From positions 930,001-994,000 of the forward strand of contig NZ_CP095071.1 in NCBI RefSeq assembly GCF_022919575.1: a stretch of 64,000 nucleotides of DNA, read 5' to 3'. This document shows positions 2,417 through 16,462 of the stretch, piece after piece. Each line of letters begins with the position of its first letter. Within the stretch, counting starts at the first letter, position 1. The position numbers were made by a program, and so were the translations under genes. Below the pieces are notes generated by a model. That model did no database searches. It saw only the letters and a program-made list of their open reading frames with translations, and had not been told where the DNA came from. Source of the stretch: Gracilibacillus salinarum (GTDB lineage Bacteria; Bacillota; Bacilli; Bacillales; Amphibacillaceae).

Positions 2417-2444
2417 AACGTCCCAGGCAGGATTCGAACCTGCG
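2417..2444 (-). repeat. attL: 28-bp duplicated 3' end of tRNA-Arg
   Basis: These 28 bases are identical to 16312-16339, the 3' end (T arm and acceptor strand) of the intact tRNA-Arg plus two bases. Identity stops sharply on both sides. A tRNA 3'-end duplication far from an integrase-adjacent intact tRNA is the usual footprint of tyrosine-recombinase integration. Confidence 0.92.
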
Positions 2445-2633
2445 TTCTACATACGGCGTATAAAGCCTATCCGTCCATTAATACGGTAGCTGATTCGGTC
2501 ATTGAGTCGGACAACCGACGTTTTAACCTATCGTACCATTAACGGAAGAAAATAGCAAGCCGTAGAACGTAATTAAGTGACCGATTACCTTGCTTCGGTT
2601 TTCTCATTGCGTCTGAGACGTCCTCAGCAACGC

Positions 2634-3212
2634 TTACTTACTAATCGCAATTACTTCGCAACCTTCTGAAACGTAACTGTCCTTGCTCGCCACCTCTGCG
2701 TTAACGCCACTCAGTAGCGAGATAAGGCGTTGACTACTATAGTCGGATAACTCTCCGAAGGCTTTCGCGATAAAAGGCTCTGCGGAAACATTCGAGTACA
2801 TAACTCGCCAAACTGCCTCTGAAGGCTTAGGCGCATAAGTCTGCCCTTTGTAGTTATCTTCGTGCGACATTTCGATTATCGTTATCTTATTTCCGTTACC
2901 TATTCCGGCAACTATAACCCGTTGCTGCAAGTCCGGATTAGCTGCTAACGCTTTTCGCAGGTATCTACGTATCATACCCGCAACTGCTTGCACGGTTGCC
3001 TTAGGCTTTTTCGACTGTTGCTCGGATAAGTAGTTATTTAGCTCGATCATAACGTTTAAGTCTCCGGTTAATCCGAACGCCACTTTGTCGTTAAATCGGA
3101 ACACTTTATTAATTCCGGATAAGGTTTTCGATTCATCTTTAAAACTTACGGCTTTATAGTCACCGCTGATTACGACTTTATCGTGCATTGCGATCGCTAT
3201 TACTAACGACAT
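2634..3212 (-). CDS. Proteasome-like Ntn hydrolase of the element
   Basis: 192 aa from the ATG at 3212, chosen because AGGAGG lies 8 bases upstream and the start overlaps the upstream stop as TAATG. After Met removal the N-terminus reads SLVIAIAMHDKVVISGDYKA, laid out like a proteasome beta subunit: Ser1 in the nucleophile position, Asp exactly at position 17, and GINKVFRF placing a Lys at 35, close to the family's Lys33. GLTGDLNVMIELNNYL resembles the following SGxxxD region. No propeptide is present; Met-Ser would be trimmed by methionine aminopeptidase. Probably translated together with the tail-tip gene. Its substrate is unknown; processing of element or helper-phage proteins is one possibility. 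Confidence 0.7.
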   Translation of the reverse strand: MSLVIAIAMHDKVVISGDYKAVSFKDESKTLSGINKVFRFNDKVAFGLTGDLNVMIELNNYLSEQQSKKPKATVQAVAGMIRRYLRKALAANPDLQQRVIVAGIGNGNKITIIEMSHEDNYKGQTYAPKPSEAVWRVMYSNVSAEPFIAKAFGELSDYSSQRLISLLSGVNAEVASKDSYVSEGCEVIAISK

Positions 3213-3961
3213 TAATACTTGCCTCCTAAATCGGATTGAATAAACATCCGTGAAATAATATTCGCATTTACTCGGCATAAGGTATCCGGAGTTAGCGTTA
3301 CTTCGTGCCACTGACCTCGTAGAATCTTGCCGTCCGAGTCCTTTGCTAAATACGGAATTAAGTCTAACTCATCCGCACTAGTTCCGGAAAAGGGAACAGG
3401 GTTTCCGTCCACTTCGATTGTGACATTACTAGGCATCGTATTTAACTTGTAGATACCATGCTGAATGTCGTGAACGTGGTCGGGTAACGTAATATCGTGC
3501 GTGTGGCTCGGAATCGTTACGTTATGGCTGTGGTTCGGAATTGTTACACTATGATCATGTGAAGGTATAGAGACGCTATGGCTATGATTTGGTATAGAGA
3601 CGCTATGGCTATGGTTTAACGTAGAAGTCGGAACTGTGATCGTGTGAAAGTGTCGACCTGATGGCGCTGGTGATCCGTCTTGATCTAGCCCACTATCGAA
3701 TTGTAGCGTTGCAAACGGACTATTTTGCGCACTAGTAACGCTTGTTCCTCCTCCGGAGTTTGTACTCGTTACCGTACCGCCTCCGGACGTTGTTGTTTCT
3801 GTTGTTCCGCCACCCGACGTTGTAGTTCTCGTCGATCCTCCGCCACTTGACGTAGATTCTACCGTAGCTCCTCCGCCCTCAGTCGCTTTGGCATAACCTC
3901 TGAATTTTCGGAATGCAAAGCCGGCTTTCTTGCGTTTTAATACTGTTGCGTGTGTTTTCAT
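3212..3961 (-). CDS. Free-standing phage tail-tip/receptor-binding C-terminal domain with HxH repeats
   Basis: 249 aa, with GAGGAGG 7 bases before the ATG. Residues about 28-80 are Gly/Ser/Thr repeats (SGGGSTRTTTSGGGTTETTT). Residues about 114-170 hold a string of His-x-His motifs (NHSHSVSIP, PSHDHSVTIP, PDHVHDIQH), as in metal-threaded phage fibre tips. The C-terminus (RGQWHEVTLTP...QSDLGGKY) resembles the end of large Bacillus-phage minor tail proteins as I remember them. Those proteins are usually several hundred residues longer, so here only the tip region exists as a separate gene. Likely recognises a cell surface or is grafted onto a helper tail; that is inference. Confidence 0.7.
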   Translation of the reverse strand: MKTHATVLKRKKAGFAFRKFRGYAKATEGGGATVESTSSGGGSTRTTTSGGGTTETTTSGGGTVTSTNSGGGTSVTSAQNSPFATLQFDSGLDQDGSPAPSGRHFHTITVPTSTLNHSHSVSIPNHSHSVSIPSHDHSVTIPNHSHNVTIPSHTHDITLPDHVHDIQHGIYKLNTMPSNVTIEVDGNPVPFSGTSADELDLIPYLAKDSDGKILRGQWHEVTLTPDTLCRVNANIISRMFIQSDLGGKY

Positions 3962-3989
3962 TCGTTTTCCTCCTCGGTAATTTTAGATA

Positions 3990-4016
3990 AATAAAAAGAA
4001 CGCCTTTAAGGCGCTC
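3990..4016 (-). terminator. Intergenic terminator inside the leftward run
   Basis: CGCCTTTAAGGCG palindrome (4001-4013) followed on the minus strand by TTCTTTTTATTT. It separates the 101-aa gene from the tail-tip and hydrolase pair, which may therefore be expressed at a lower level. The stem is short, so termination may be partial. Confidence 0.5.
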
Positions 4017-4020
4017 CTCT

Positions 4021-4326
4021 TTATGCGAAAGTTACGGTACTAACTACTTCGTCCGCTTCGTATTTGTCGACTAAGTGCGTTTCTAACGCTGTGCTTAGCG
4101 TAACCTCTGCCGGCAAAGTAACGTTGATAGTTAGCTCCCCTTCGTTATTGTCGATTGCGTCAGCTACTACCGTTTTAATGGTATCCTCGATAAAGTCCAC
4201 CGCGGTCATGTTGCTGTAGATGGACGTTAATACGTTCTTTCCGTCCAGCTTTGCGTTCATCGAGCGGTATCCTTTGGCGTGCTTTGTTTCCTCGTACATT
4301 TTCGTTGTGATTGTTACGTTTTTCAT
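4021..4326 (-). CDS. Small element protein, possible structural subunit
   Basis: 101 aa, not recognised. It starts MKNVTITTKMYEETKHAKGY and is predicted mostly beta strand in its C-terminal half (GELTINVTLPAEVTLSTALE). The start has AAAGGGGAAATTTTAACG directly before ATG, a leader almost identical to that of the 242-aa gene upstream. The two may be the strongly expressed, stoichiometric products of the run, for example a decoration or tail-tube-type subunit. This is inference from position and leader only. Confidence 0.6.
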   Translation of the reverse strand: MKNVTITTKMYEETKHAKGYRSMNAKLDGKNVLTSIYSNMTAVDFIEDTIKTVVADAIDNNEGELTINVTLPAEVTLSTALETHLVDKYEADEVVSTVTFA

Positions 4327-4436
4327 CGTTAAAATTTCCCCTTTTTAAGTTTATTTTTACGCTCCTCCTGCGCCGACACACAGTACAGACGGAGCAATAT
4401 TGATATCGCTTACATAGTTGCGTTAGCTTTATTCGC

Positions 4437-5165
4437 TTAAACTTTATGCGCGCGACTTCTTACGTTCTTGTACGTTCTAAACTCGGTTGTTACTCCCATC
4501 GGTAACTGGTCGGCTAATTTACTCGCAAGCAAGTCGAGGTTATCTACCTTTTGGACGCTAGATAATAACCCCTTTGCGTTTAATGCGGTAGTCTCGTACT
4601 TCTCCGCTTTGGCGTTAATATCATCGACTAAGCCGTTAAGCTGCCCCTGTAAAGCCGTTTTAACCTCGTCGGACTGATAACCGATGGTACGCTCCGCCTC
4701 TTTAACGATACTAGCAAACTCGGTAACGTTAGGCGCTGACTTCACTTTTAAAGCGAATCTATTCGCGATCTGTTCCGCTTGCTCTTTGTCGGAAGTAGTT
4801 ACGTGTACCTTCGCAGTGGCAGACTTTTTGTAAGCGTCCTCTACCATTTGCGCTCTAAGGTCGTTCCATTCCGATTGTAAGGCGGTTGCATTCGCCTCAT
4901 ATTCCGCGTACAGCTTATCGAGTTCATACTTTTTGTACTCGTCCGTGTGAAGCGGATTATCCGAGTCGTTAATTTTGTCTCGGCTCTTTCTGTACGAATT
5001 ATGCAAGCGCTGTGCTTCCGTCCTAAATTCGTCATAGCGTCCGAAGCTAGTTTCCGTAGCCTTTCCGCTTTGGATTAAGGCGTCCGCTTGTTTGTCGTCT
5101 ATATTCGCCACTGAGTGCTGTTCGTTGTTCCCTACGTTTTCTAACATAAATAATCGTTTTGTCAT
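4437..5165 (-). CDS. Helical element protein in the major-capsid position
   Basis: 242 aa from the ATG at 5165 (MTKRLFMLENVGNNEQHSVA), chosen over the longer frame because AAAGGGGAAATTTAACG precedes it. The middle (about 55-110) is a charged helical stretch rich in Lys, Glu, Tyr and Ala (DEYKKYELDKLYAEYEANAT) that may form a coiled coil; residues about 150-210 are also helical. It directly follows a scaffold-like gene, where tailed phages put their major capsid protein, but I cannot see HK97-fold signatures. Function unknown; virion or assembly role is suggested by context. Confidence 0.6.
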   Translation of the reverse strand: MTKRLFMLENVGNNEQHSVANIDDKQADALIQSGKATETSFGRYDEFRTEAQRLHNSYRKSRDKINDSDNPLHTDEYKKYELDKLYAEYEANATALQSEWNDLRAQMVEDAYKKSATAKVHVTTSDKEQAEQIANRFALKVKSAPNVTEFASIVKEAERTIGYQSDEVKTALQGQLNGLVDDINAKAEKYETTALNAKGLLSSVQKVDNLDLLASKLADQLPMGVTTEFRTYKNVRSRAHKV

Positions 5166-5203
5166 CGTTAAATTTCCCCTTTGTAAGTTTATTTTGTTCC
5201 GCT

Positions 5204-5641
5204 TTAGGCGAACGGATTCCATGCTTTACTGACTTTCGACTTGCCTACCGGATCAACGTAACTTCTACCGCCGGACACTTCCTCCGACAACTCTAAAGCA
5301 CTGCGCTCGATATCTTCTCTCGTATCACCGGACAGGTAAGGCGTATATCTATCTAGCTGTTCGTGCGTAAATCCGGCGTCAATTAACGCTTTTTGCTTTA
5401 GTGCATCGAAATATTTACGCTTATACTCTTCCTGCTCTTCGTCGGAAGGTTCCGGCTCTTGCTGTGGCTCCGGCTCTTTTGCCGGCTCTTGTGTAGGTTC
5501 GCTTTGACCGTCTTCAAGCTCCTGCGTAAGCTCTGCAATTCTACCTTTCAACTGTTCGACCTCTTTCTCGTGCTTCAAGCGTTCTCTTTTCAATCGGTCT
5601 CTTACAATCTCGTTAACTTTGTCTTGCGTTAGCTCTGACAT
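5204..5641 (-). CDS. Phage scaffold-like protein
   Basis: 145 aa, ATG with GAGGGG 10 bases upstream. Layout as in tailed-phage scaffolding proteins: N-terminal charged coiled coil (VNEIVRDRLKRERLKHEKE), a Pro/Glu-rich linker (EPAKEPEPQQEPEPSDEEQE), then a helical C-terminal part ending KVSKAWNPFA. Terminal NPF/NPW motifs are typical of these scaffolds. Residues about 87-118 (ALIDAGFTHEQLDRYTPYLS) are paralogous to the next gene upstream. In a satellite such a protein could redirect helper capsid assembly, as CpmB does in SaPIs; in a virus it would build its own capsid. Confidence 0.65.
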   Translation of the reverse strand: MSELTQDKVNEIVRDRLKRERLKHEKEVEQLKGRIAELTQELEDGQSEPTQEPAKEPEPQQEPEPSDEEQEEYKRKYFDALKQKALIDAGFTHEQLDRYTPYLSGDTREDIERSALELSEEVSGGRSYVDPVGKSKVSKAWNPFA

Positions 5642-5646
5642 ATTTC

Positions 5647-6006
5647 TTACACCCCTCTGTAGAATTTATTTGTCATGCCTTTGGCTTTAAGGCGTCTAAC
5701 AGCCTCGCGTCCAATCTCGGCTTTGTCTTTCTTCTTAGGTTGGTTCTGTTTACCATTACCGAGGCTAGGCTCAACGTACTTTTTTGTCGGTGGAATGTCT
5801 TCCTTTAATATCTCGACAGACTCTTTAAATTCCTGCGAAGTATCTCCGACAACTTTCGGTAAATACTTGTCGGCTTGCTCTTCGGTGTAACCTGCATCCG
5901 TCAAAGCCTTGCGTTTTTTGTCTTTGGTTGCCTGTTGTTTATCCGCGTCAATGTTAGCTTGTAGCTGTTCGAATAACTCTCTATAATTCGGTTGCTCTTC
6001 GCTCAT
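5647..6006 (-). CDS. Second scaffold-like paralog
   Basis: 119 aa. Start codon overlaps the upstream stop (TAATG), with GGAG 6 bases before it. Residues about 33-70 (ALTDAGYTEEQADKYLPKVV, then GDTSQEFKESVE) clearly match the C-terminal module of the neighbouring 145-aa protein. The C-terminus instead is basic (KKKDKAEIGREAVRRLKAKG). It looks like a duplicated scaffold module with a different tail, perhaps binding nucleic acid or another head protein. Function inferred. Confidence 0.6.
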   Translation of the reverse strand: MSEEQPNYRELFEQLQANIDADKQQATKDKKRKALTDAGYTEEQADKYLPKVVGDTSQEFKESVEILKEDIPPTKKYVEPSLGNGKQNQPKKKDKAEIGREAVRRLKAKGMTNKFYRGV

Positions 6007-6209
6007 TAATATCTCCGCCCCTTTACTCGATAATATTTTTCTTGCCGGCGTTTCCGGCTTCTTAATTCGTTTTTAAGCGTTGGATACGGATTTTGCTCGA
6101 ATACTGTTCGGAATGATTGCACTCCCTTAGGTGGTCGGTCTGTATCCATCGGTATTCCGTTTTTGTTGCGTTGTTTTGCTCTACTGTTTCGGTTTATTTT
6201 CTTCGGCAT
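6006..6209 (-). CDS. Small basic element protein
   Basis: 67 aa, strongly basic at both ends (MPKKINRNSRAKQRNK ... NELRSRKRRQEKYYRVKGRRY). The stop overlaps the next start, so it is translationally coupled to the scaffold paralog. The ribosome site is weak, which fits coupling to the upstream 234-aa gene that ends six bases earlier. No family recognised; nucleic-acid binding is plausible from charge alone. Confidence 0.5.
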   Translation of the reverse strand: MPKKINRNSRAKQRNKNGIPMDTDRPPKGVQSFRTVFEQNPYPTLKNELRSRKRRQEKYYRVKGRRY

Positions 6210-6214
6210 CTGTT

Positions 6215-6919
6215 CTACTCAACGTCCTTCCGTGTATATTTAATCGGCTCTTGCAGTCTTTCTGTAATCGTACTCTGCCGTGCTAAAGCGTCCTTGGCTA
6301 ATAGCTCGGTTTCCTCTATATTTGTCTGCGCTGTAATCGACGGCTGTATTCGAACATACTCAACGCCTAGCCAATCCGTCACATTACTGTTATTCGCACC
6401 GATTGCTTGCACTCTAGCATACTCTGTGGCGTCTGTAAGTGGCGCTAAATATTCCACAAGATACTGGCTGCGTTCTTTTCGCGTCATAGCTTTCGGTACG
6501 TATATCGAATGTATAGCGTAAGTGTATCCGTTAGCCTTCTCCGTAATCCCGAAGCCAGTTGCTCCCGCTTCCTCGTCTTTAATGATATGAGCGAAAAACT
6601 TTCGATTACCGTCTCTCCAATGATATCCGTGCCTAAAACGTTTGCTATAGTCGGTCAGTGGTAAAGTGACGCCTTTAGTTTCGTCGACTACGGTTAACTG
6701 TTCGATATCGAAGTCCAGCGCCTCCACTACCTCGAAAGCGTCTGTCTGACTTCCGCTGCGGATTACCTCGGCGCTATTAGTTGGCGTTAACTTGTAGCCG
6801 GCTTCCGTTATCGTTAGGGTTCCGCCTTTAGCGAAGACTGGCGTTAAGGTATCGGCATGGACTAGCGTTGTAATGCCTTTGCCTAGCCGTCCGTGTTCCG
6901 TGATTTTCGTGTAATTCAA
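6215..6919 (-). CDS. Unknown 234-aa element protein
   Basis: Starts with TTG at 6919, supported by AGGGAG at a good distance. No domain recognised. The sequence mixes beta-rich segments (GKGITTLVHADTLTPVFAKG) with a central block (DYSKRFRHGYHWRDGNRKFF) and a helical C-terminus. Position at the head of the scaffold group suggests a role in particle assembly, but I see no portal or terminase features. Orphan. Confidence 0.55.
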   Translation of the reverse strand: MNYTKITEHGRLGKGITTLVHADTLTPVFAKGGTLTITEAGYKLTPTNSAEVIRSGSQTDAFEVVEALDFDIEQLTVVDETKGVTLPLTDYSKRFRHGYHWRDGNRKFFAHIIKDEEAGATGFGITEKANGYTYAIHSIYVPKAMTRKERSQYLVEYLAPLTDATEYARVQAIGANNSNVTDWLGVEYVRIQPSITAQTNIEETELLAKDALARQSTITERLQEPIKYTRKDVE

Positions 6920-7068
6920 TAAAACCGCTCCCTTTCGTTTAAATAAACAGATACGGCTTATATTCGCTAAAATAGTGCGCTAGTAAGGCGGTTTTTAGCA
7001 CCTTAGGTATCGGTTAGGTACGATTAGTCCTAAACGTTATACAGTCCGTAAAAACCGCTTAGTGAGCG

Positions 7069-7284
7069 CTATTTTTTAGGCTTGAATAGGCGTATCTGAT
7101 TCGTGTCTACAAGTCCAGTAACGGCAATAACCTTGCCGGCTTCGTCCGTGTCTGTTCGGATAATTTCCGCTTTAGCTTGTAACTGACGAACGTGTGGCGG
7201 ATAGCTTGAATAAACTCGCCAGTATCCGTCCAGTGGTTCGTAAGTGTATACCGTTTCTTGTTCGGCTTTTGCGTAGAAACTCAT
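7069..7284 (-). CDS. Small element protein (71 aa)
   Basis: Start chosen at the ATG 7284 because GGAGGTGG lies 7 bases upstream and ATG overlaps the previous stop as ATGA. Sequence begins MSFYAKAEQETVYTYEPLDG and ends with a basic FKPKK. No family recognised; compact beta-rich composition. Translationally coupled to the 52-aa gene upstream. Confidence 0.6.
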   Translation of the reverse strand: MSFYAKAEQETVYTYEPLDGYWRVYSSYPPHVRQLQAKAEIIRTDTDEAGKVIAVTGLVDTNQIRLFKPKK

Positions 7285-7439
7285 TCGGAATCCACCTCCG
7301 CTTGTAGCGCGATTAACCGCTCTCTGATGCGAATTGATTCCGCCCAATGTGCCTGTAAGTCGTGCGTGATTCGACGTAAGTCTACGTGGATGGCTCCGAG
7401 TTCTGTTCGGAGTTGCTGTATTTGTTCATCGTACGTCAT
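7281..7439 (-). CDS. Small coiled-coil protein (52 aa)
   Basis: Read directly from the minus strand: MTYDEQIQQLRTELGAIHVD then LRRITHDLQAHWAESIRIRE, ending LQAEVDSE. AAAGGGGG stands 6 bases before the ATG, and the stop overlaps the next start (ATGA). The heptad-like helix suggests a coiled coil. Small size and coupling are typical of phage-type operons. Function unknown. Confidence 0.6.
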   Translation of the reverse strand: MTYDEQIQQLRTELGAIHVDLRRITHDLQAHWAESIRIRERLIALQAEVDSE

Positions 7440-7572
7440 ACGTATCCCCCTTTGAAATTGTAAGCGTTTTCATTTTAAAACGCTCGAAGTTTCTTTAATG
7501 TTCGACGTGTGTCTTCGTGCATTCGGTATTGACGGCGTAGTAGCGACTGGAGTAACAATTCGGTTCTACTCA

Positions 7573-8073
7573 TTACGCCTCAGCTCGCTTGTTCGACGCC
7601 TGGACTTTATACGTAGCAAAGCGGACATTACCGGGCTCGTAGTTGCCTTCCGGATTAATGCGGTCAAGTGTCGTCTGCTTTTCGCTATGTTCAAGTGCGT
7701 GTGCGTTGTACGCTTCCACTACATCGCGATAGAAGTGTAAGAAGTCTTCTCGCCAGTGGTCGCATACTTGGACGCCTTTAGCTCCGTAGTTTTTGTAACT
7801 GTCGTGTTTATCGTTGTAGCATCGGTTCATCATGTTTCTCCAGGTGCTGTAGATACGTGTGTTTGTCATCCGGTTTGTTGACGACCTCTCCATACTAAGG
7901 CAACCGCAAGACTTTGTGTTTCCGTTTCGTAGGTTATCTCCGGAAACTATTACAGCGCCTCCGCACTCGCATTCGCACAGCCAGCATGCGTGTCCGTTTT
8001 TACTGTTTTCTACACGTTTCATCACCGTTAATCGTCCGTAAGTTTTACCTGTAATATTTTTTAATTTTGCCAT
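7573..8073 (-). CDS. HNH-type phage endonuclease-like protein
   Basis: 166 aa from ATG 8073 (MAKLKNITGKTYGRLTVMKR), chosen for GAGGAG 7 bases upstream. Residues about 27-55 form a zinc-ribbon-like cluster (CWLCECECGG ... SCGCL). The C-terminal half has the HNH-like pattern HSEKQTTLDRINPEGNYEPG followed by NVRFAT. This family of small, mobile, HNH/AP2-associated nucleases is scattered through Firmicutes phages, often as homing or packaging-related genes. No intron or intein is visible next to it. Substrate unknown. Confidence 0.75.
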   Translation of the reverse strand: MAKLKNITGKTYGRLTVMKRVENSKNGHACWLCECECGGAVIVSGDNLRNGNTKSCGCLSMERSSTNRMTNTRIYSTWRNMMNRCYNDKHDSYKNYGAKGVQVCDHWREDFLHFYRDVVEAYNAHALEHSEKQTTLDRINPEGNYEPGNVRFATYKVQASNKRAEA

Positions 8074-8129
8074 TGTCAATCTCTCCTCAAATTTTATCGT
8101 CTCTCTCGTCAATCCAATCTGTTCCAATC

Positions 8130-8246
8130 CTATAAGTGTGCTTGCAGCTTACTTAAAGTCGAACTAACTTCGGCTGTTACGTGAAAGCCTTGTGACTTCA
8201 ACTCGGCTAGTGCGTATAGATAGTCGATCATTTGCTCTACTGTCAT
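8130..8246 (-). CDS. Possible small protein (38 aa)
   Basis: Reads MTVEQMIDYLYALAELKSQG then FHVTAEVSSTLSKLQAHL. A GGGGAG/GAGAGG purine block precedes the ATG. It sits between the HNH gene and the zinc-finger gene in the same orientation. A single amphipathic helical pattern is likely; function unknown. Confidence 0.45.
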   Translation of the reverse strand: MTVEQMIDYLYALAELKSQGFHVTAEVSSTLSKLQAHL

Positions 8247-8370
8247 CCTCTCGCTCCCCTTTCAATCAATCCGGCGTAAGTATATTATTTAAGAGAAACA
8301 GCCGACCCTCCTTCTCAGAAAAACTGTTCCCCCTTCACTGTTAACGCGGTTTTCTCCCTGCGAATTAGTG

Positions 8371-9192
8371 TTATTTCGCGACTTTTTTCAAAAAAGTTTC
8401 AAGTTTTTTCGACTTTACTTCTCGCTCGCTTAAATCGTGCACATTGTACGAAACAACCTCGCTACTCTCCCCGTTGTCGAAAGCCTCCGAGTCAATCCGC
8501 CTAGCCTTATCGGCTAATGTAGTCGCTCTCGTAATGCCGTAAGCCTTTGATGTGGCTTCGTCTGCAATCAACTGTAAACTATCCGCTTCAAACAGTCGGA
8601 CGTGCTTCCGATACTCATGCTCGGACTGGCTTAGCCGAATGTCTTTGTATGCGCTAACAGGTAAATAAGTGCCGTTGTCGTACAGATTACTAGTCCGCTC
8701 AAACTCTCGGATAGCGTATTTTTCTGACTCTCGACACTCAGGCGAACAGTACGACTGACTTTTATGTTTCGGCTCGAATACGTTTAAACAAAAGCGGTGT
8801 TTGCAGTCGGTGTAGTTGTCGTAGGTGGCTTGCGCCTCTGCTTCGGTAACAGTTCCGGTGGATACTTCTAGCAGTAAGTCGTCGCGTAAGTCCGGCTCTG
8901 TGTAAGTCGACTTTGTTACGTATTGGTATTCTAACGCTCTCCAGTCGGCAGAAGTCCGTGTCTCTATCTCGCGTTGTTGTGCTTGGCGTTCTAAGTTTTC
9001 GGCTACATAGTCGAGTATATCTCCGAGGTCGGATAAGACTTCCGGCTTCGGATGGTGGTCGGCTTCTTCGAGTGCTCTTCCGATAGAGTCCGACACTAGT
9101 TCAAAGTCGGTTACGTTTGCTCGTTGAAACTGCTTCTTTAATCCTTTAACTTGGCGGTGGTCAATTCGCGTCTCTTCAATCATCTTCATCAA
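8371..9192 (-). CDS. Unknown protein with a treble-clef-like zinc finger
   Basis: 273 aa. TTG at 9192 has GGGAG 9 bases upstream; the following ATG at 9189 is also possible. Residues about 130-155 read CKHRFCLNVFEPKHKSQSYC followed by SPEC, a Cys-x4-Cys ... Cys-x3-Cys zinc-binding pattern seen in small nucleic-acid-binding proteins. The rest is helical and charged. Just downstream of the helicase-like gene, so a role in element replication is plausible but not shown. Confidence 0.6.
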   Translation of the reverse strand: MMKMIEETRIDHRQVKGLKKQFQRANVTDFELVSDSIGRALEEADHHPKPEVLSDLGDILDYVAENLERQAQQREIETRTSADWRALEYQYVTKSTYTEPDLRDDLLLEVSTGTVTEAEAQATYDNYTDCKHRFCLNVFEPKHKSQSYCSPECRESEKYAIREFERTSNLYDNGTYLPVSAYKDIRLSQSEHEYRKHVRLFEADSLQLIADEATSKAYGITRATTLADKARRIDSEAFDNGESSEVVSYNVHDLSEREVKSKKLETFLKKVAK

Positions 9193-9250
9193 TCAATCAG
9201 TCTCCCTTTTTAAAATGTGTTGGTTTTCGGTACTAATAACTTATTTATAT

Positions 9251-10498: not shown

Positions 10499-10803
10499 AA
10501 AATCTCTCCAATCCGTTAAATTTATCGCTAATTTATAGCGTTATTTTGTACGCTGTTTAGTCCGTTTTCGGACGCTAACCGTCCGAGATTGAAAGCGGAA
10601 TCCTTGCGCCCCAAGGGATACAGCGTTTAATCCTTAAAAGAAAATAGTACGTTTTTTACTCGGAATAGTTCGAAATTGTATCGGTATTATTTATCGTCTA
10701 TCTAAGGCTTGCTTTGCAAGCCTAGCTGTCTTTGACAGCTTAGGTACTACTAATAAAACGCCTATTACATTCGGAAATACATTAGCGAAAATAGATAACC
10801 TCG
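10499..10803. other. Intergenic region with tandem hairpins
   Basis: No gene with a ribosome site seen. It contains GTCCG-TTTT-CGGAC (10560-10573) and two adjacent perfect hairpins with TTT loops: 8-bp AGGCTTGC/GCAAGCCT (10705-10723) and 7-bp AGCTGTC/GACAGCT (10724-10740), enclosed by CTA/TAG. Neither is followed by a T run, so they are not ordinary terminators. A structured 5' leader of the helicase-like gene or a single-strand origin are possible roles. Confidence 0.55.
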
Positions 10804-11220
10804 TTAGTACTTGTCGCCAATCAAAGCCGAAATATAACGCCTAACATACTCGGTTAACCTGACGCCATCTGTCGCCACTACATCGACCATCTTACGTAAT
10901 ATCGAAACTTCGGCGCTTGCTTTGTCTCGAATATTAGCGTAGTAATACCGAAGCCACCCTTCGCTAGCATAAGGCGTAATAGTCCGAAGTAGTGTTTCGT
11001 ACCTCTTGAGCGCGTTCTCTAGGTCACGTTTAGCTTGCGCCTTGTTAACTGCCGAGCCACTTTCGACGGATTCCATTAGCTGTAATAGCGTGTGCCTAGC
11101 GTCCACCAGTAAGGCGTCAAAGTATTCCATTGACATAATTTCCGACTGTGCTTCCGTTGAGTTCGTATTCATCGTAACAACCCTCCGACTTCCGTAAATT
11201 GTTTTCAGTTCGCGATTCAT
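10804..11220 (-). CDS. Unknown helical protein (138 aa)
   Basis: ATG 11220 has an ideal AGGAGGTG 7 to 9 bases upstream. Almost entirely alpha-helical by composition (EYFDALLVDARHTLLQLMES; NALKRYETLLRTITPY). No domain recognised and no membrane segment. It sits alone between the hairpin region and the gene-poor stretch 11221-11932. Confidence 0.6.
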   Translation of the reverse strand: MNRELKTIYGSRRVVTMNTNSTEAQSEIMSMEYFDALLVDARHTLLQLMESVESGSAVNKAQAKRDLENALKRYETLLRTITPYASEGWLRYYYANIRDKASAEVSILRKMVDVVATDGVRLTEYVRRYISALIGDKY

Positions 11221-11270
11221 CCGCGATCACCTCCTATAATTAACGTGGAATTTTCCCTGCAAATTAGCGC

Positions 11271-11374
11271 TTGCTTTTCGTCTGAGTATCGGTTATAATC
11301 AAGTTAGCGTAGAGTGGCGATAAATCTGTACTAGTCCTAAACGCCTAACAGGCGGCTAACTGTATCAGTTTTTA
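11271..11374 (+). ncRNA. Candidate small RNA with own promoter and terminator
   Basis: A promoter TTGCTT (11271-11276), 17-bp spacer, TATAAT (11294-11299) reads to the right. About 60 bases later are hairpin CGCCT-AAC-AGGCG (11342-11354) and hairpin AACTG-TAT-CAGTT followed by Ts (11358-11373). The predicted transcript is about 65 nt, with no start codon preceded by a ribosome site. It is divergent from the 138-aa gene. A replication-control or regulatory RNA is plausible; expression is unproven. Confidence 0.4.
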
Positions 11375-11932
11375 CCGCCAAATTACATACGAGCCACACA
11401 GAGCGATTATAAGCGTTTTATGGCGCTTTCGGGTACGAACACCCTACTACACCCCTTAAAACGGCTGAGAGCGCCTCTATTTGCTTTTGAGAGCGTCAGT
11501 GTTTCGATGATTGGTGTCTGGAGGCAGAGTCCGACCTTTTTCGAAACTTAAAAGTAACCCCCTCACTTATAGCAAATTTCCAATTCCACATTTTTACAAG
11601 AATTAGGTTAGGAAAACGTTGTTATTTCCAAAGTTGTGTCTAAATTGTGAACGATTAGAACCATTATCGCTAAAAAAGGTATAAAAGTCCTACAACTTTT
11701 TTGCATTCGCTACCTATAGCGCCTGTTTACGACTTTTCACTTTTACCATTAATGGAAATTAATTACCATGATACAGGTAAAACCGTCTGTATTACTTTCA
11801 GTCATAAAACCCACCGGAAAATAAAACCCTCCTACTGTAACCTTCGTCAAACAGACACCTAACTCGGCACAATTCCGAAAATTTCTCAAAAAAAAATAAA
11901 GGAAGCGCCCTAAAACGCTCCCCTTAGTTCCG
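11375..11932. other. Gene-poor region with terminators
   Basis: No convincing CDS. Two hairpins stand out: AAAAGT-CCTACA-ACTTTT with Ts (11683-11702), and the leftward terminator at 11887-11923. AT-rich tracts near 11570-11690 may hold promoters I cannot assign. Confidence 0.4.
11887..11923 (-). terminator. Terminator after the small membrane-peptide gene
   Basis: Minus-strand RNA GGGAGCG-UUUUAGGG-CGCUUCC forms a 7-bp stem (one G-U pair), followed by UUUAUUUUUUUUU. It ends transcription of the 12570-11933 gene group. Confidence 0.8.
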
Positions 11933-12013
11933 TTAAGCAACCACCACCACAAACGCCAACCCTGCGACAAACAAACCTGCGTAATACATATCCGTAACTG
12001 ACAACCTCCGCAT
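11933..12013 (-). CDS. Small membrane peptide (26 aa)
   Basis: Reads MRRLSVTDMYYAGLFVAGLA then FVVVVA. Two Arg and then a hydrophobic stretch give one membrane segment with the N-terminus inside. The ATG directly follows the stop of the 97-aa gene (TAGATG), with a GGGGGCGG block upstream, and a terminator follows. Possible roles include holin-like, toxin-like or exclusion peptide; nothing decides between them. Confidence 0.5.
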   Translation of the reverse strand: MRRLSVTDMYYAGLFVAGLAFVVVVA

Positions 12014-12307
12014 CTATTTCCGCCCCCAGTTCTTCGCCAAGTCTTTCCGCGCTAACTCTCTCCGCATAGTCGCCACTTCATCCGTGGAAAAGTCGACCTC
12101 TCCTCGCTCAATGCGTTCGATCATCAAGTCCGCCACATAATCCCGATTAGCTTCGAACCATTCTAAAGCCACCTGACGCTCTTCTAAAGCTTGCGCCTGT
12201 ACCTCGGCTTTAACCTCCGGAGTTCCATATGCTGCTCGATCAGATTCCGAGAATAACGGAACCACCTTTCCACTTTTTGCGTCCATCCAGTTTACTTGTT
12301 CGCTCAT
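12014..12307 (-). CDS. Unknown acidic helical protein (97 aa)
   Basis: Begins MSEQVNWMDAKSGKVVPLFS; GGAG about 10 bases before the ATG. Glu/Ala-rich helices (KAEVQAQALEERQVALEWFE) and a C-terminal RRELARKDLAKNWGRK. No family recognised. First or second gene of the left-going early group near the regulator. Confidence 0.6.
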   Translation of the reverse strand: MSEQVNWMDAKSGKVVPLFSESDRAAYGTPEVKAEVQAQALEERQVALEWFEANRDYVADLMIERIERGEVDFSTDEVATMRRELARKDLAKNWGRK

Positions 12308-12375
12308 AATTAATCCGCTCCAATCCGTAAAATATATATTTAGCGTGCATTTTCGCTCTGTTAGCTTTCACCTTG

Positions 12376-12570
12376 TTATCGAAATGCACGTGCTACACTT
12401 GCCTGGATATAAATTTCCATCATAGCGTAGTCTTTTTGCGCAAACTCTTTCGTACCTTCAATTTCGGTCATAAATTGCGCTAGTTTTTGATCGCGAGCTT
12501 CCGGAGTAGCTAGCTGACGATTAATATTATCTAGTTGGTGTAAGTACCGATTTACTTCGCGTAGTTGCAT
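12376..12570 (-). CDS. Unknown helical protein (64 aa)
   Basis: ATG 12570 has an ideal AAAGGAGGG 7 bases upstream. Helical throughout (MQLREVNRYLHQLDNINRQL). Divergent from the Cro-like regulator at 12750, with the palindromic operator region between them. This is the position of Xis- or activator-type genes in satellites and phages, but no such family signature is visible. Confidence 0.6.
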   Translation of the reverse strand: MQLREVNRYLHQLDNINRQLATPEARDQKLAQFMTEIEGTKEFAQKDYAMMEIYIQASVARAFR

Positions 12571-12637
12571 CCGGCAACCCTCCTTTCGTGTAAGTAAATT
12601 ATATTATTGCGACTGCTTGGCTTTGTCTTATCGCTTA

Positions 12638-12716
12638 ATTACATATTACAGTAATGCGTAATAAAAGTCAACGGTTAAATTACACTTTTGCGAAATTTAT
12701 TAGTGTAGCGTATAAT
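12638..12716 (+). promoter_or_regulatory. Promoter and operator palindromes of the Cro-like regulator
   Basis: Promoter TTGCGA (12688-12693), 17 bp, TATAAT (12711-12716) leads into the regulator gene. Upstream is a symmetric array ATTAC-N2-ATTAC-A-GTAAT-N2-GTAAT centred at 12650 (12638-12662). A second inverted repeat, TACACT/AGTGTA (12681-12686, 12702-12707), straddles the -35 box. These are good operator candidates for the divergently arranged genes. Confidence 0.65.
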
Positions 12717-12749
12717 GAACGTAATAATAATAGAAGGGAACGAATCTAA

Positions 12750-12968
12750 ATGCGACAAATAAAACTCACTCTCGACGGCCACATTAAACGGCTAGGATAC
12801 TCACAAAAAGAGTTTGCAGAGTTATCCGGATTACGTACTGCAACAATTAGCCAGTTAGTTAACAATAAATATGACCGTATTCAACTGGCGCACCTGTTAA
12901 CGGTTATGGAGACGCTAAAAATTACCGACTTTAACGAAATACTTACGATAGAAGAACCTCCGGAGTAA
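12750..12968 (+). CDS. Cro/XRE-type helix-turn-helix regulator
   Basis: 72 aa, AGAAGGGA upstream of the ATG. Helix-turn-helix at residues about 17-40 (GYSQKEFAELSGLRTATISQ then LVNNKYD), typical of short Cro/XRE repressors (YozG/HipB-like size). Divergent from the leftward genes, with palindromes between, so it probably represses its own promoter and the left operon and serves as the element's switch. Which phage signal, if any, relieves it is unknown. Confidence 0.85.
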   Translation: MRQIKLTLDGHIKRLGYSQKEFAELSGLRTATISQLVNNKYDRIQLAHLLTVMETLKITDFNEILTIEEPPE

Positions 12969-13346
12969 GGTTCCGCCAAAGGCTCCGAAAGTTGACCCCC
13001 GGTCTCCGAAAAACTTGGCGGAAATTACCGGAGCCTTGGCAGCGCCGTCCGAACGCTTGATCCCCGCCCCCTTAATCCGCGGAACCGCAACCGCTGAGCA
13101 AGCGGAATCCTCGTCAGTGGCGACAAAGCTAGCGTAAATGGCTAACGGTTAACGTCCGACTCGTAACGTCTGTTAGCGTCTATAAAACGAAGGATAAATA
13201 CACGGTAAATAAACGGCTACAATCCTTCCGAAAATAATCCGATAACCGTCTACAAACTCGTTTATAAATTACCGTTGACTTCTCCATCCGTTTAATGTAC
13301 GATATAGGTACAGTAAATACTCTAAAAATAACGGAGGTTGTTACCT
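12969..13346. other. Non-coding region with inverted repeats and serine-recombinase promoter
   Basis: Two 7-9 bp inverted repeats interleave: TTCCGCCAA/TTGGCGGAA (12971-12979, 13015-13023) and GGCTCCG/CGGAGCC (12981-12987, 13029-13035). A promoter TTGACT (13275-13280), 17 bp, TACGAT (13298-13303) leads to the recombinase. ATAGGTA and TACCTAT flank the untranslated leader. The stretch could hold the res site of the recombinase; no ORF is convincing. Confidence 0.5.
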
Positions 13347-13916
13347 ATGAAAATCGGATATGCTCGCGTTAGTACGGCTGACCAATCGCTAAGTGTACAA
13401 GAAGACGCTTTAAACAGTGCCGGAGTTGAACGCCTATACTCGGAGAAAGATTCCGGTGGAAAATGGCAGCGCAAGGAATTACACCGAATGCTGGATGCCT
13501 TACGCCCTGGCGACACGTTAATCGTGTATAAACTTGACCGCTTAGCACGGTCACAGAAACAGTTACAAGACATCGCTCACATGTTGAAGAGTGGCGACAT
13601 AGAACTCGTTAGTATCTCGGAACAGCTCGACACTAGGACGCCAATGGGTAAAGCTATGTTCGGAATGATCGGCATTATGGCGGAGTTAGAGCGTGACATG
13701 ATTCGAGAACGTACAACGGCGGGCTTAGCGTCTGCACGTGCTAGAGGACGTAAAGGCGGACGTCCTAAGGCTGATCCTGCGAAGGTTAAAAAGGCGCTTG
13801 CGTTATACGATAGCAAAGAGTATTCCGTACCTCAGATAACGGAAGAGACCGGCATCAGTAAGGCGTTATTGTATAAGGAACTTAATAAACGGAAACAGTC
13901 TGGCGTAGGGAGTTAG
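13347..13916 (+). CDS. Serine recombinase (resolvase/invertase family)
   Basis: 189 aa from ATG 13347 (MKIGYARVSTADQSLSVQED), preferred because GGAGG is 9 bases upstream; a TTG directly after GGAGG is too close. Catalytic Ser9 lies in YARVS; RLARSQKQL and the long helix MAELERDMIRERTTAGLASA fit the family; a C-terminal Hin-like helix-turn-helix follows GRKGGRPKADP. Likely resolves multimers of the replicated circular element or inverts a segment. The candidate target is the inverted-repeat region just upstream. Distinct from the integrase at the other end. Confidence 0.9.
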   Translation: MKIGYARVSTADQSLSVQEDALNSAGVERLYSEKDSGGKWQRKELHRMLDALRPGDTLIVYKLDRLARSQKQLQDIAHMLKSGDIELVSISEQLDTRTPMGKAMFGMIGIMAELERDMIRERTTAGLASARARGRKGGRPKADPAKVKKALALYDSKEYSVPQITEETGISKALLYKELNKRKQSGVGS

Positions 13917-14242
13917 TCCCTGCGTCTTTTTCGTGCTGCTGGCGACTACCCCTCGAGTTTTGGCGAGGTATGTCCGTCGTGAACGTGCCGTCTGATTAAA
14001 CGGAACCCTTGTCGGAATGTAGTCGCCACACTCTTACGGAACCCCTTACGGAACTATATTCGCTTGCTCCGAGGTTAGTTAGTCGAGTAACTAACCGCCA
14101 CTGTAACCCTATTCAACCTCCGACTGTATCTCCGATTGTAAACGTAATCTACTGGTTAAATCGTAACTATTCCGACTTACTTCTTATGTCGCTTTACCAC
14201 GGTAAAGTGTTGCGTTTACAACCGAGTTACAAACCTACGGAG
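13917..14242. other. Candidate iteron-type replication origin
   Basis: Between the convergent recombinase and Rep-like genes. Perfect 9-bp palindrome GGTTAGTTA/TAACTAACC (14073-14096) and 7-bp CTTTACC/GGTAAAG (14192-14207). TGTAAC/TGTAAAC-type repeats occur on the plus strand (14100-14107, 14123-14130, 14135-14143) and in inverse orientation (14213-14223, 14224-14231, 14240-14247). Several share a flanking CTCCG or CCG. The layout resembles an origin bound by an iteron-binding Rep. No convincing CDS within. Confidence 0.55.
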
Positions 14243-15049
14243 TTACAGTCCGGTTGCTTGCATAGCTTCCGCCATCAGGTCATCTAGCTTGTTCGATAAC
14301 ACTCCGTTAAAATAGCCGGCAAGGTTACGGATAGGAATTCGCTTTGTCGCTTTAAACGTCTCCTGTATGGCGGTTATAACTGCGGAGATTAGCTCGGCTT
14401 TACCTTCCGTAGAATAGTATTCCGTAGCTCTTAACGGCTTTGTTTGTCCGAGATAGACGCCATAGAGTCGGCTTATTGTCGGCTGGCTGTCCTCGCCTAA
14501 GAATGTTGTTATCGCCTGTTTAACCGCTGAATACGTGCTAACGCCTGTAGGATACGTATTAGTAACGAATGTATTATTTTTCGCAAGTTTGCGTAAAGGT
14601 TCTTTCTCGGAATTTGTTGCCGGTTCCTTTGCGTCTGTTAGGTTGTCGGCTTCTGCTCGCTCGGAAGTTAGTCCGGAAGTTGGCTCGGAAGTTTCCAGCT
14701 CTAAAAACGGCTTAATTATAATAATATTCGCACCTCTACCGCCTGTCTTCGGACGGTTACGGCTAACCCTTGCAATCATGCCTAACCGTTCTAACTTGGC
14801 GAGTATGTTCCGAGTGGCTCTGTCTGTACGTTCTATGTATTCGGCTATTGTCGCCACCTTCAAGTGACTAGCGCCTGCATACTTTACGGCATACCTGGCG
14901 ATGAATTTAAATACTTGACGGTCAGTAGCGTTAATGTCGTCGGTTGTAGCGTCTAGGTGGCGTTTTACGTGGAAGTTTAATTCTTGCTTGTCTGCGAATT
15001 GTTGGAAGTCGGTTAAATATTTCATATTCGACCTACGTTTTTCCTGCAT
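14243..15049 (-). CDS. Winged-helix replication-initiator-like protein
   Basis: 268 aa, GGAGGAGAG 7 bases before ATG. The N-terminal 100 residues look like a winged helix (VFKFIARYAVKYAGASHLKV; YIERTDRATRNILAKLERLG), as in Firmicutes plasmid and phage replication proteins. The C-terminal half is a separate helical domain ending NGVLSNKLDDLMAEAMQATG. Iteron-like repeats overlap its 3' end. Probably binds the adjacent origin and works with the helicase-like ATPase at 9251-10498. A purely regulatory role cannot be excluded. Confidence 0.65.
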   Translation of the reverse strand: MQEKRRSNMKYLTDFQQFADKQELNFHVKRHLDATTDDINATDRQVFKFIARYAVKYAGASHLKVATIAEYIERTDRATRNILAKLERLGMIARVSRNRPKTGGRGANIIIIKPFLELETSEPTSGLTSERAEADNLTDAKEPATNSEKEPLRKLAKNNTFVTNTYPTGVSTYSAVKQAITTFLGEDSQPTISRLYGVYLGQTKPLRATEYYSTEGKAELISAVITAIQETFKATKRIPIRNLAGYFNGVLSNKLDDLMAEAMQATGL

Positions 15050-15140
15050 GGCGTTTCTCTCCTCCGTTTAATTCCGGAGAACTTACCCCTTTCGCAAACG
15101 TACGTTCTGTTTAACGGACAGACGTTTCGAATTTTAATGC

Positions 15141-15234
15141 TTGCGATTTTTTCGAAAGTTCGATACAATAAACCTACGGTAATAGGTGTATCGGTGGTAC
15201 TCTTTTTAGGGTAGTTCTCCGGTACTCTTTTTTT
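15141..15234 (+). ncRNA. Candidate small RNA between rep-like gene and int
   Basis: Promoter TTGCGA (15141-15146), 17-bp spacer, TACAAT (15164-15169), pointing right. A terminator with stem AGGGTA/TACTCT (15208-15213, 15223-15228) and seven Ts ends it just before the 3' end of int. Predicted transcript about 60 nt; GGTACTCTTTTT occurs twice in it. The -35 matches that of the Cro-like gene. It could control int or rep; expression is unproven. Confidence 0.4.
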
Positions 15235-15236
15235 GT

Positions 15237-16214
15237 CTATAAAAAGTTACGTAAGCTTTCGGCTACTTCTTCACGGTCTAAGTGCAGGTATCTAGTCGTA
15301 ATCCCTATATCGCTATGCCCTAGCGCTTTCGAGATTAGAGCAATGTTCGCTCCCTTGCGTAACAGATTCTTCGCAAACCCTCGTCTAAGTGCGTGAGGAT
15401 TTATGTTCTTTAGTCCGTATTCTCTGGCGTGCTTATTCAACCGTTTAATTATGTTGTTGTGGTTGTTAACGTCACTAGCGATCTTTGTGCCGTTTTTGGT
15501 CACGAATAAATAACGGTTGTCCTCTTTATGCTCGCTGCGGATAACGGTATTCTGTTTAATCAAGGCGTCAAGTAGTCGATACAGTACGTTATCAAACGGA
15601 AGGTATATCGCTTGATGATTCTTAATTAATCCGCCGTCAATGCGTAGTATTTTTTCGTCAAGGTTAACGTGCTTCTCCTGTAATTCCGTCAACGTTCCGA
15701 CTCGTACTCCGGTTTGATACATTAATAGCGCTGCGGTTGCGTCTCTTAGCTCGGTAAATCTCGACAAGTCTAACATCGTTAATAGAATGTTTAACTCCTT
15801 GTCGGTGGCGCCCTCTTTAACAGGATTGTCGACTTTAATACGGATACTCCGCCAAAAGTTAACGGTTATCCAGCCGTTATCTAAACAACGACTAAGAAAC
15901 GCCTTCAAACACTTTAGGCGCGTCAGTTTTGTTTGGTTGTTAACGTTCATGGACGACAACCATTCGTAGATGCAGTTAACCGTTATATCTTCTACGTAAG
16001 AGACTCCGGTTACTTCTACGAAGTGGTTAACGTGTAGCTCGTAGTCGTTAATGGTTCGCGGACGTAATCCGGATGCTCTCATTTGCTTTATAACGGTTGT
16101 TAGCGCTTTATTAATCGGATAACCCTTCTTCTTACCATCGGAGGAGCTTCGAAAAGCCTCCGACAAGTCGGTTAAATCGGTTTGTACGGATAGTGACGGT
16201 TTCCTTTTCGTCAT
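15237..16214 (-). CDS. int: Tyrosine integrase of the element
   Basis: 325 aa. N-terminal SAM-like core-binding domain (about 40-135), C-terminal catalytic domain with the Arg in YQTGVRVGTLTEL, HALRRGFAKNLLRKG (His-x-x-Arg), GHSDIGITTRYLHLD (His and the Tyr nucleophile). Catalyses recombination between attP and the tRNA-Arg 3' end. The start has AGGAGG, but this SD is the 3' arm of a hairpin that also looks like a terminator (16217-16282), so expression from the tRNA promoter should be low. Adjacent to attR as usual. Confidence 0.95.
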   Translation of the reverse strand: MTKRKPSLSVQTDLTDLSEAFRSSSDGKKKGYPINKALTTVIKQMRASGLRPRTINDYELHVNHFVEVTGVSYVEDITVNCIYEWLSSMNVNNQTKLTRLKCLKAFLSRCLDNGWITVNFWRSIRIKVDNPVKEGATDKELNILLTMLDLSRFTELRDATAALLMYQTGVRVGTLTELQEKHVNLDEKILRIDGGLIKNHQAIYLPFDNVLYRLLDALIKQNTVIRSEHKEDNRYLFVTKNGTKIASDVNNHNNIIKRLNKHAREYGLKNINPHALRRGFAKNLLRKGANIALISKALGHSDIGITTRYLHLDREEVAESLRNFL

Positions 16215-16216
16215 AA

Positions 16217-16282
16217 CAAAAAAGCCTCCTAATCGCTAGCTGACCGATTCATTGACCGATACAACCAACGTATTAGAAGGCT
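16217..16282 (-). terminator. Element-supplied tRNA terminator that masks the int ribosome site
   Basis: Minus-strand RNA AGCCUUCUAAU (16282-16272) pairs along 11 bp (one G-U) with AUUAGGAGGCU (16233-16223), followed by a U run. The 3' arm contains the AGGAGG of int. The 38-base loop holds two TGACCGAT copies (16241-16248, 16253-16260) that may be integrase arm sites. Confidence 0.7.
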
Positions 16283-16311
16283 CTCTGACGGGCTTTATTG
16301 CCGTAAAGTAA

Positions 16312-16339
16312 AACGTCCCAGGCAGGATTCGAACCTGCG
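16312..16339 (-). repeat. attR: 28-bp repeat forming the 3' end of intact tRNA-Arg
   Basis: Identical to 2417-2444. This copy completes the functional tRNA gene after integration, so the element itself carries the tRNA 3' end. Confidence 0.92.
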
Positions 16340-16387
16340 ACCCACAGCTTAGAAGGCTGTTGCTCTATCCTGCTGAGCTACTGGGAC
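16314..16387 (-). tRNA. tRNA-Arg (anticodon UCU)
   Basis: 74-nt cloverleaf on the minus strand: acceptor GTCCCAG pairs with CTGGGAC; D loop AGCTCAGCAGGATAGAGC; anticodon loop CTTCTAA (anticodon TCT); T loop GGTTCGAATCC. CCA is not encoded. It is the integration target. Its 3' segment was supplied by the element but the identity is intact. Confidence 0.95.
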
Positions 16388-16388
16388 A

Positions 16389-16462
16389 TGGAGCGGGTGA
16401 AGGGAATCGAACCCTCGACATCAGCTTGGAAGGCTGAGGTTTTACCACTAAACTACACCCGC
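16389..16462 (-). tRNA. tRNA-Gly (anticodon UCC)
   Basis: Minus-strand cloverleaf with acceptor GCGGGTG/CACCCGC, anticodon loop CTTCCAA (anticodon TCC) and T loop GGTTCGATTCC. CCA is encoded (16391-16389). It ends one base before tRNA-Arg, so the two are cotranscribed from the promoter at 16716-16744. Confidence 0.95.

Follow-up and report, generated by a model that had tools for sequence, protein, structure and literature searches.

The 64,000-nucleotide stretch of DNA analysed here (the window) spans positions 930,001 to 994,000 of NZ_CP095071.1, a 4.80-Mb contig in assembly GCF_022919575.1 of Gracilibacillus salinarum, and contains an integrated element of 13.9 kb at window positions 2417-16346, bounded by direct repeats. 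The element is probably an integrated phage satellite belonging to a new Gram-positive family, which resembles the phage-inducible chromosomal islands (PICIs) at its head end and, at its tail end, the PICI-like elements (PLEs) and their chimeric tails (PMC12987554, consulted in part). Below, the window's own genome is labelled G000, other genomes carry G numbers and individual loci L numbers, and the genes of the element are lettered A to T from left to right.

An earlier reading of the sequence alone, here called the original prediction, had placed 28-bp attachment repeats at the two ends of the element. These repeats are exact, at 2417-2444 and 16312-16339, and their extended copies of 35 nt are 91% identical, with the right copy lying within the 3' end of a tRNA-Arg(TCT) gene (16313-16388). 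When the same tRNA was searched on both strands in 16 other genomes of the genus, nine had an empty site in which the left flank past the repeat continues directly into the tRNA (L066-L069, L072, L074, L075, L077 and L080), and in two of these nine the neighbouring glycogen phosphorylase gene is also in line. A tenth (L071) showed that gene and the repeat only, and the remaining six gave no left-flank match beyond the repeat. The G+C content is 44.6% in the element and 40.3% in the window. The element exists as a discrete integrated unit with the following ends:

2417..2451, no strand: left attachment repeat, its first 28 bp equal to the right copy; empty site in 9 of 16 genomes
16312..16346, no strand: right attachment repeat, within the 3' end of tRNA-Arg(TCT)

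Relatives of this element were collected through one of its leftward genes, H:

6215..6919, minus strand: H, no known family; the family-defining query

All 15 elements discussed here (that of the window and 14 relatives) were gathered in this way, and the count of H is fixed by construction. A search with H found relatives in four of 61 genomes, and an H profile in nine of 159 genomes of the taxonomic family, one of which has two copies, and in six of 397 genomes sampled from the order; each count includes G000. Genes outside the window were called by a simple script for open reading frames (ORFs), which may be wrong for small genes, and the ends of L087-L089 were set roughly for the census and for the counts of short sequences. 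Direct repeats of 28-95 bp flank 13 of the 15 elements; no convincing attachment repeats were seen at L088 (an 18-bp pair) or L089 (none). Insertion is at a gene for tRNA-Arg, tRNA-Leu or tRNA-Val or at the 3' end of a protein gene, the latter presumably spo0A for L020 and L022 (where the attachment repeat, at 2844 and 661 respectively, copies the end of the host gene) and an IscA/ErpA-type gene for L005.

An integrase is present in all 15 elements (14 by profile census, that of L087 in a further stretch) and a replication gene, rep, in 13 (12 by profile census, and L087). The profile census placed D in 11, C and I in six each, the helicase M in three and a primase in four, and it counted 11 HNH proteins, two of one type and nine of another (including the restriction gene of L021). 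No two elements have exactly the same gene set. Outside the window the Pfam and PHROGs scans covered the larger or tail-slot proteins, and small genes of TerS, chaperone or connector type may have escaped notice; among the proteins scanned in the 15 elements there was no large terminase, portal or capsid protein, and a TerS-like gene in L022 (phrog_7344, E 1.7e-19) was the sole one seen among the other elements, whose small proteins were partly scanned. The original prediction was to count as refuted if this gene set occurred as a unit in no other genome; a related set does recur, bounded, among the 15 elements, and by homology the family is scattered through Gracilibacillus and related Bacilli.

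Within the window, 20 ORFs were scanned against Pfam and PHROGs. No terminase (TerS included), portal, capsid or lysis gene was found among them, nor a tape measure or a recognised tail assembly chaperone, which agrees with the earlier statement that terminase, portal and capsid genes are absent. The prediction of twin scaffold-like genes was borne out at the head end:

5204..5641, minus strand: E, scaffold relative in which coiled coil and core are kept, with WNPFA at its end by alignment (phrog_14063, E 1e-6)
5647..6006, minus strand: F, scaffold relative without roughly the 70 N-terminal residues that the full-length scaffold has, core and C-terminal end kept (phrog_14063, E 8.7e-9)

F matches the 185-aa scaffold of the complete prophage L043 at 39% (E 1.4e-18) and aligns to residues 75-180 of that full-length protein. 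E keeps the coiled coil and the core, and its C-terminal end differs (WNPF). A scaffold of the L043 type was matched in six of 159 genomes, full-length in G179, G109 and G118 and shortened, within elements, in G000, G011 and G007; the census counted F-type scaffolds in six of the 15 elements and E-type in four. E and F are shortened relatives of a full prophage scaffold and, by their alignment, alternative forms rather than one damaged gene. Neither matched a family in NCBIfam, and the helper-type full-length scaffold had no tblastn match in 50,697 phage records. In SaPI1, the conserved C-terminal sequence that CpmB shares with the helper scaffold binds the capsid protein and alters the curvature of the shell, according to the parts of PMC6893505 consulted. 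By analogy, E and F may act as CpmB does.

At the other end of the leftward gene set, the last gene slot varies between elements and holds a tail gene in 10 of the 15. In the window this is B, the free tail-tip domain of the original prediction:

3212..3961, minus strand: B, C-terminal domain of a tail-tip protein (prophage endopeptidase tail), standing free and with a start site of its own, matching positions 403-651 of phrog_4311 (E 1.6e-76)

B corresponds to the last 249 residues of the tail-tip family (phrog_4311 is named 'minor head protein' by PHROGs) and matches the C-terminal part of the 643-aa protein of L005 at 63%. A whole tape measure or tail tip is present in eight of the 14 relatives. 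An open tape-measure frame occurs in L006 (768 aa), L020 (1096 aa), L022 (749 aa), L054 (802 aa), L087 and L089; the family matches for L022 and L054 were obtained on pieces of 640 and 709 aa, and that for L089 (E 3.7e-12) on 603 aa of a 936-codon frame. Full-length tail tips occur in L005, L007 (619 aa) and L087, those of L005 and L007 carrying a PF06605 domain that B lacks. L087 has both tail genes side by side, in open frames of 768 and 633 codons with PHROG matches, and L088 has tape-measure fragments only. The idea that a shorter tape measure means a shorter tail as a general rule was dropped, as the lengths do not separate satellites (749-1096 aa) from phages (1103 aa in prophage L056, 694 aa in phage vB_BhaS-171).

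The occupants of this slot bear on a narrower explanation, in which the satellite redirects capsids only and the last slot is a site for cargo, including defence genes, whose tail proteins block tail assembly by the helper. The slot of L021 (13907-16070) suits it, as it holds an EcoRI-type methylase and a GmrSD/restriction-like gene instead of a tail gene, and satellite-encoded tail-assembly inhibitors exist (Tai; PMC11364771, seen in part). Yet the tape-measure and tail-tip proteins are whole and in open frames, adjacent in L087, and look like working virion parts, and the PLEs use their own tape measure as a part of the virion in the account of PMC12987554, as far as consulted. We regard the capsid-only explanation as rather unlikely. 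Our fuller proposal is that the slot is a dedicated and interchangeable tail slot, for a tape measure or a whole tail-tip adhesin/endopeptidase, by which the satellite sets the tail of the particle and possibly its receptor, and that paired scaffolds with two C-terminal ends redirect the capsids of two helper types; this is put forward tentatively, as a possibility somewhat short of even chances.

Shortened scaffolds and a partial tail-tip protein might also be what remains of a complete phage, inserted at tRNA-Arg, from which the genes for packaging, the capsid and most of the tail have been lost. B, as only the C-terminal third of a tail-tip protein, fits such decay, as do the tape-measure fragments of L088 and the H genes of L022 and L054, which are broken or split. 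Decay would not readily account for the recurrence of a similar reduced set with attachment repeats in several genera, nor for E and F as alternative shortened scaffolds, and the search of the 50,697 phage records gave no relative for H or D (for H, nor did that of viral contigs). We judge a decayed prophage to be quite improbable, and the satellite reading is preferred.

The proteins that most resist classification are H and three of its neighbours:

2634..3212, minus strand: A, proteasome/HslV-like (PF00227, E 0.0014, under the Pfam cut-off); its start overlaps the stop of B
4021..4326, minus strand: C, 101-aa protein
4437..5165, minus strand: D, 242-aa protein, mostly helical, with a small N-terminal beta domain

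Scans with Pfam, PHROGs and family profiles gave no credible family match for H, D or C. H is full-length (208-246 aa) in eight of the 15 elements (that of the window, L005, L006, L007, L020, L021, L023 and L085). Its model reached a best Z of 6.4 with VIA-align, a middling score, mostly to RNase H-fold chains; a Pfam RNase H family was matched by none of ten H members, and an RNase H-like C-terminal half is a weak hint from the model. The D model scored best (Z 9.6, also middling) against a designed helical protein, and D is modelled as a long helical protein. The structure searches suggested with the original prediction were run for H and D with Foldseek against viral models and returned no match at E <= 0.001. 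A profile search of the PDB with H gave nothing credible (best E 0.15), tblastn with H, D, F, E and A found no match in the phage records, and H alone matched none of the genome contigs searched, the H alignment as query returning two loci, both already known. A protein database search with H gave four matches that did not include the known H of L005 and L006, and its absences are weak. A has one relative, at 51%, among 5.8 billion proteins and is present in the window element only (1 of 15 in the census); the proteasome-like hydrolase of the original prediction is thus retained as a weak similarity (best PDB E 0.13).

That H and D lack a credible family, with models of no clear fold, is what might be expected if they were virion proteins of a small virus, autonomous and with a capsid, portal and terminase so divergent that they escape recognition, as the original prediction had also suggested. 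The D model, a long helical protein, does not favour this. Whole proteins of ordinary tailed phages, tape measures or tail tips, are encoded by elements of 12-17 kb (22 kb in the case of L087) and, since no other tail gene was recognised beside them among the proteins scanned, a tail donor is implied. A small autonomous virus is accordingly very improbable, the least likely of the explanations considered, and we return to the satellite reading in what follows.

Among the closest known systems are complete prophages of helper type with the same scaffold family (phrog_14063), namely L042/L043 in G179, L055 in G109 and L056 in G118. The prophage in G179 is complete, with genes for TerS, TerL, portal, scaffold and capsid, and its tape measure is related to that of the satellite in the same genome (33.6% over residues 495-1096); its tape-measure gene (L042, 11714-17609) is apparently in separate pieces, with another gene between. 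L055 and L056 share short sequences with the elements, upstream of terS. All three prophages differ from the element in that they carry, as a full phage does, sets of head, packaging and tail genes.

In L055 and L056, no genes were called over some 2 kb upstream of terS; these two stretches resemble each other at about 80% and are not independent. Their comparison with the 15 elements (219 kb) yielded 23 and 13 matches at 29.5 bits or above, as against means of 3.4 and 3.3 in dinucleotide shuffles (maximum 8 in 60 each) and 2 and 1 matches in a chromosomal control of 101 kb, half the size. These matches fall in nine and seven of the 15 elements, and 16 of the 23 and nine of the 13 lie outside called genes, which hold about 73% of the element DNA. 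The window has two of the shared sequences:

13964..13985, minus strand: 22-bp site that agrees at 21 of 22 bases with sequence upstream of terS in L056, on the strand of rep and 258 bp downstream of it
11454..11470, minus strand: 17-bp identity (17/17) with the region upstream of terS in L056

With the 22 bases of L056 as query, the best site had one mismatch in the window element, four in L054, five in L023 and six to nine in the other twelve, and seven overlapping 14-kb control pieces gave eight or nine. The site lies 175-302 bp downstream of rep and on its strand in the window, L054, L023 (second copy) and L085; in L005 a weaker site lies 315 bp downstream, and in L021, where it is on the other strand, and for the other copy in L023 it is more than 1 kb from rep. 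The location of the site in the prophages points to a possible packaging site, and that in the elements to a possible origin. A 15-base exact pattern made from the site was rejected as not specific by itself, with 10 matches in 156 genomes and 17 for the reversed pattern. Three of the ten are in family elements and two in helper-type prophages, from which the pattern had been built; of the other five, three are inside called host ORFs, and those at L090 and L098 are outside ORFs, and no phage gene was recognised there. The stability of DNA folds at the site was inconsistent (z -2.1 to 1.7).

From the boundaries, the gene family, the scaffold and tail homology and the shared short sequences we infer a possible course of events. 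A helper phage, infecting or induced, would relieve the Cro-type switch, and the element would excise and replicate with its own initiator. The short scaffolds E and F, with D helping, would compete with the helper scaffold, and the helper capsid protein would form a smaller shell. The helper terminase would then package element DNA, perhaps by way of a site that the element has in common with the sequence ahead of terS, and it is possible that H or D is a packaging-redirecting protein unrelated to TerS. Finally, the product of the last-slot tail gene (whole in the eight relatives, the C-terminal domain of the tip in the window) would replace the helper part and yield chimeric tails.

Several of these steps have counterparts in known satellites, to which the family is likened by description. 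SaPI-type PICIs (type 1, with CpmA/CpmB), after the Staphylococcus aureus pathogenicity islands, also have an integrase and attachment site, divergent regulators, a replication gene of their own and short relatives of the helper scaffold in which its C-terminal part is retained, as in CpmB (PMC6893505, consulted in part); E and F are possible counterparts of such capsid-redirecting genes, of the CpmA/CpmB or Ccm kind. They differ in that CpmA/CpmB and TerS were not recognised in the profile scans of the window and that rep in the window adjoins the integrase gene, ahead of the regulators; a tail gene slot or relatives of H or D are not described for SaPIs in the parts of the literature consulted. 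The PLEs of Vibrio cholerae have tail genes of their own, as have the present elements with their tape measures in six of 15. The consulted parts of PMC12987554, on PLE chimeric tails described in 2026, give the PLEs their own tape measure and tail assembly chaperone, with a baseplate hub as well in PLE11, in tails that include helper parts; no other satellite had then been reported to encode a tape measure, according to its authors. The family differs from the PLEs in its Gram-positive hosts, its scaffold-like head genes and its usually single tail gene (tape measure or tail tip), and the combination of tape measure and chaperone is lacking in the window. Capsid-forming PICIs (cf-PICIs) have genes for capsid, protease, portal, connectors and terminases (PMC10690885), are reported to use the tails of diverse phages (PMC13345588) and in some cases have putative tmp genes (PMC12987554), each source having been seen in part; none of this capsid and packaging set was recognised in the window element. 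The Streptomyces satellite MiniFlayer has its own tail fibre gene and, in the same partial view of PMC10690885, differs in having its own capsid and packaging genes, no integration and a different tail protein. The complete structural and packaging modules of a prophage are likewise lacking in the window. The element resembles both PICIs and PLEs in plan and is assigned to neither, because neither TerS nor a tape measure was found in the window. A literature search over titles and abstract openings, with few subscription papers or preprints, returned no paper recognised as describing this family.

A number of observations weigh against a satellite that takes over both head and tail. A recognised scaffold is absent from nine of the 15 elements in the profile census, no tail gene was seen in five (L021, L023, L053, L085 and L086), and H is half-length, split between frames or weakly matched in seven (L022, L053, L054 and L086-L089; weakest in L089, E 2e-4). 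The window copy has no tape measure and about one third of a tail tip, without the endopeptidase part; B stands behind a terminator-like hairpin, a feature no commoner in the element than in shuffles, with no promoter-like site before it, and the tail module may be decaying here. The window copy is a reduced member of the family at its tail end. The shared short sequences differ between elements. The scaffold of L043 matched only E and F in G000 and its portal matched nothing, and the one PF03354-type prophage of G000 gave no scaffold match to the element; the large-terminase search of that genome covered this one family, and another resident prophage may be missed. Only three of 159 genomes showed a full-length scaffold of this type, and its co-occurrence with the satellite in G179 may therefore be by chance. 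On balance, the new satellite type touching head and tail that the original prediction had inferred is favoured by the recurring bounded unit, the cut-down scaffolds and the whole tail proteins of the relatives, with the truncation of B and the differences in gene set between elements on the other side.

The remaining genes run from the right end in the order integrase T, initiator-like S, serine recombinase R and Cro-type Q, which faces the leftward genes P to A:

6006..6209, minus strand: G, small basic protein
7069..7284, minus strand: I, 71-aa protein (phrog_1709)
7281..7439, minus strand: J, 52-aa protein
7573..8127, minus strand: K, HNH endonuclease (phrog_374, E 4.4e-63)
8371..9192, minus strand: L, 273-aa protein with one relative, in L087
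9251..10498, minus strand: M, helicase-like, related to YonV of phage SPbeta (phrog_2467, E 5.4e-70; tblastn 37.9%)
10804..11220, minus strand: N, 138-aa protein
12014..12307, minus strand: O, 97-aa protein of the leftward gene set
12376..12570, minus strand: P, 64-aa protein, first gene of the leftward set
12595..12693, no strand: divergent control region, with an 18-nt direct repeat at 12595 and 12676 (83%) and opposed promoter-like sites
12750..12968, plus strand: Q, Cro/C1-type regulator (HTH_26, E 1e-7)
13338..13916, plus strand: R, serine resolvase/invertase (PF00239, E 1.5e-43)
14243..15049, minus strand: S, replication initiator-like (phrog_1835, E 1.4e-32; HTH_36, E 5.9e-5, just under its cut-off)
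15237..16214, minus strand: T, tyrosine integrase (PF00589, E 1.9e-29); the L007 integrase, from the same tRNA site, matches it at 71%

The integrase, the Rep-like protein and the Cro-like regulator named by the original prediction were all recovered, and by homology S and M would provide a replication module of the element's own. Iteron-like repeats around rep were supported by an excess of short repeats, with 11 nine-base repeat pairs within 150 bp of each other over 13916-15237 (shuffle mean 1.26; none of 300 shuffles reached 11); the rep gene alone is unremarkable, with three pairs, reached by 25 of 300 shuffles. Q, on the plus strand, diverges from P and O on the minus strand, with a divergent promoter-like pair between, and the arrangement is a putative switch; the 15 promoter-like sites of the whole element do not exceed the number in shuffles (mean 19.0). 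The palindromic operators expected there were not found: a search of 12565-12755 gave none of 12-22 bp reaching 85%, only the 18-nt direct repeat and the divergent promoter-like pair being present. Eight window proteins had no match in PADLOC, and the whole element had none to plasmids at the DNA level.

Some further observations concern the elements and their surroundings. A second recombinase stands beside rep in five elements, of serine type in three and short tyrosine type in two (window 13338-13916; L020, L087, L005 and L054). An FtsK/SpoIIIE-like gene and its neighbour are common to two elements and a prophage (L022 15768-17445, L042 846-2601, L088 1049-2867 and L057 23049-24822), and an annotated pair of FtsK-like and replication-initiation genes in phage vB_BhaS-171 may be the same. 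The PF03354-type prophage of G000 (L039-L041, contig C1, terminase at 380437) is separate from the element and encodes a 1190-aa protein of tape-measure size. Just outside the element, a 40-bp sequence overlapping a tRNA-Gly gene (16432-16471) is repeated exactly 154 bp further on (16586-16625), and a T-box leader lies at 54389-54630 on the minus strand (Rfam RF00230, 99.8 bits).

Control of phage heads by satellites is well known. A Gram-positive family with tape-measure or tail-tip genes, several of them beside scaffold relatives, would point to more than one origin of tail piracy. Gracilibacillus and its relatives would thus be hosts in which to ask why a satellite replaces a part of the tail, be it for length, for escape from defences that target tails or for choice of receptor, and the members with tail-tip genes (L005, L007 and L087) would make the question of the receptor directly testable.

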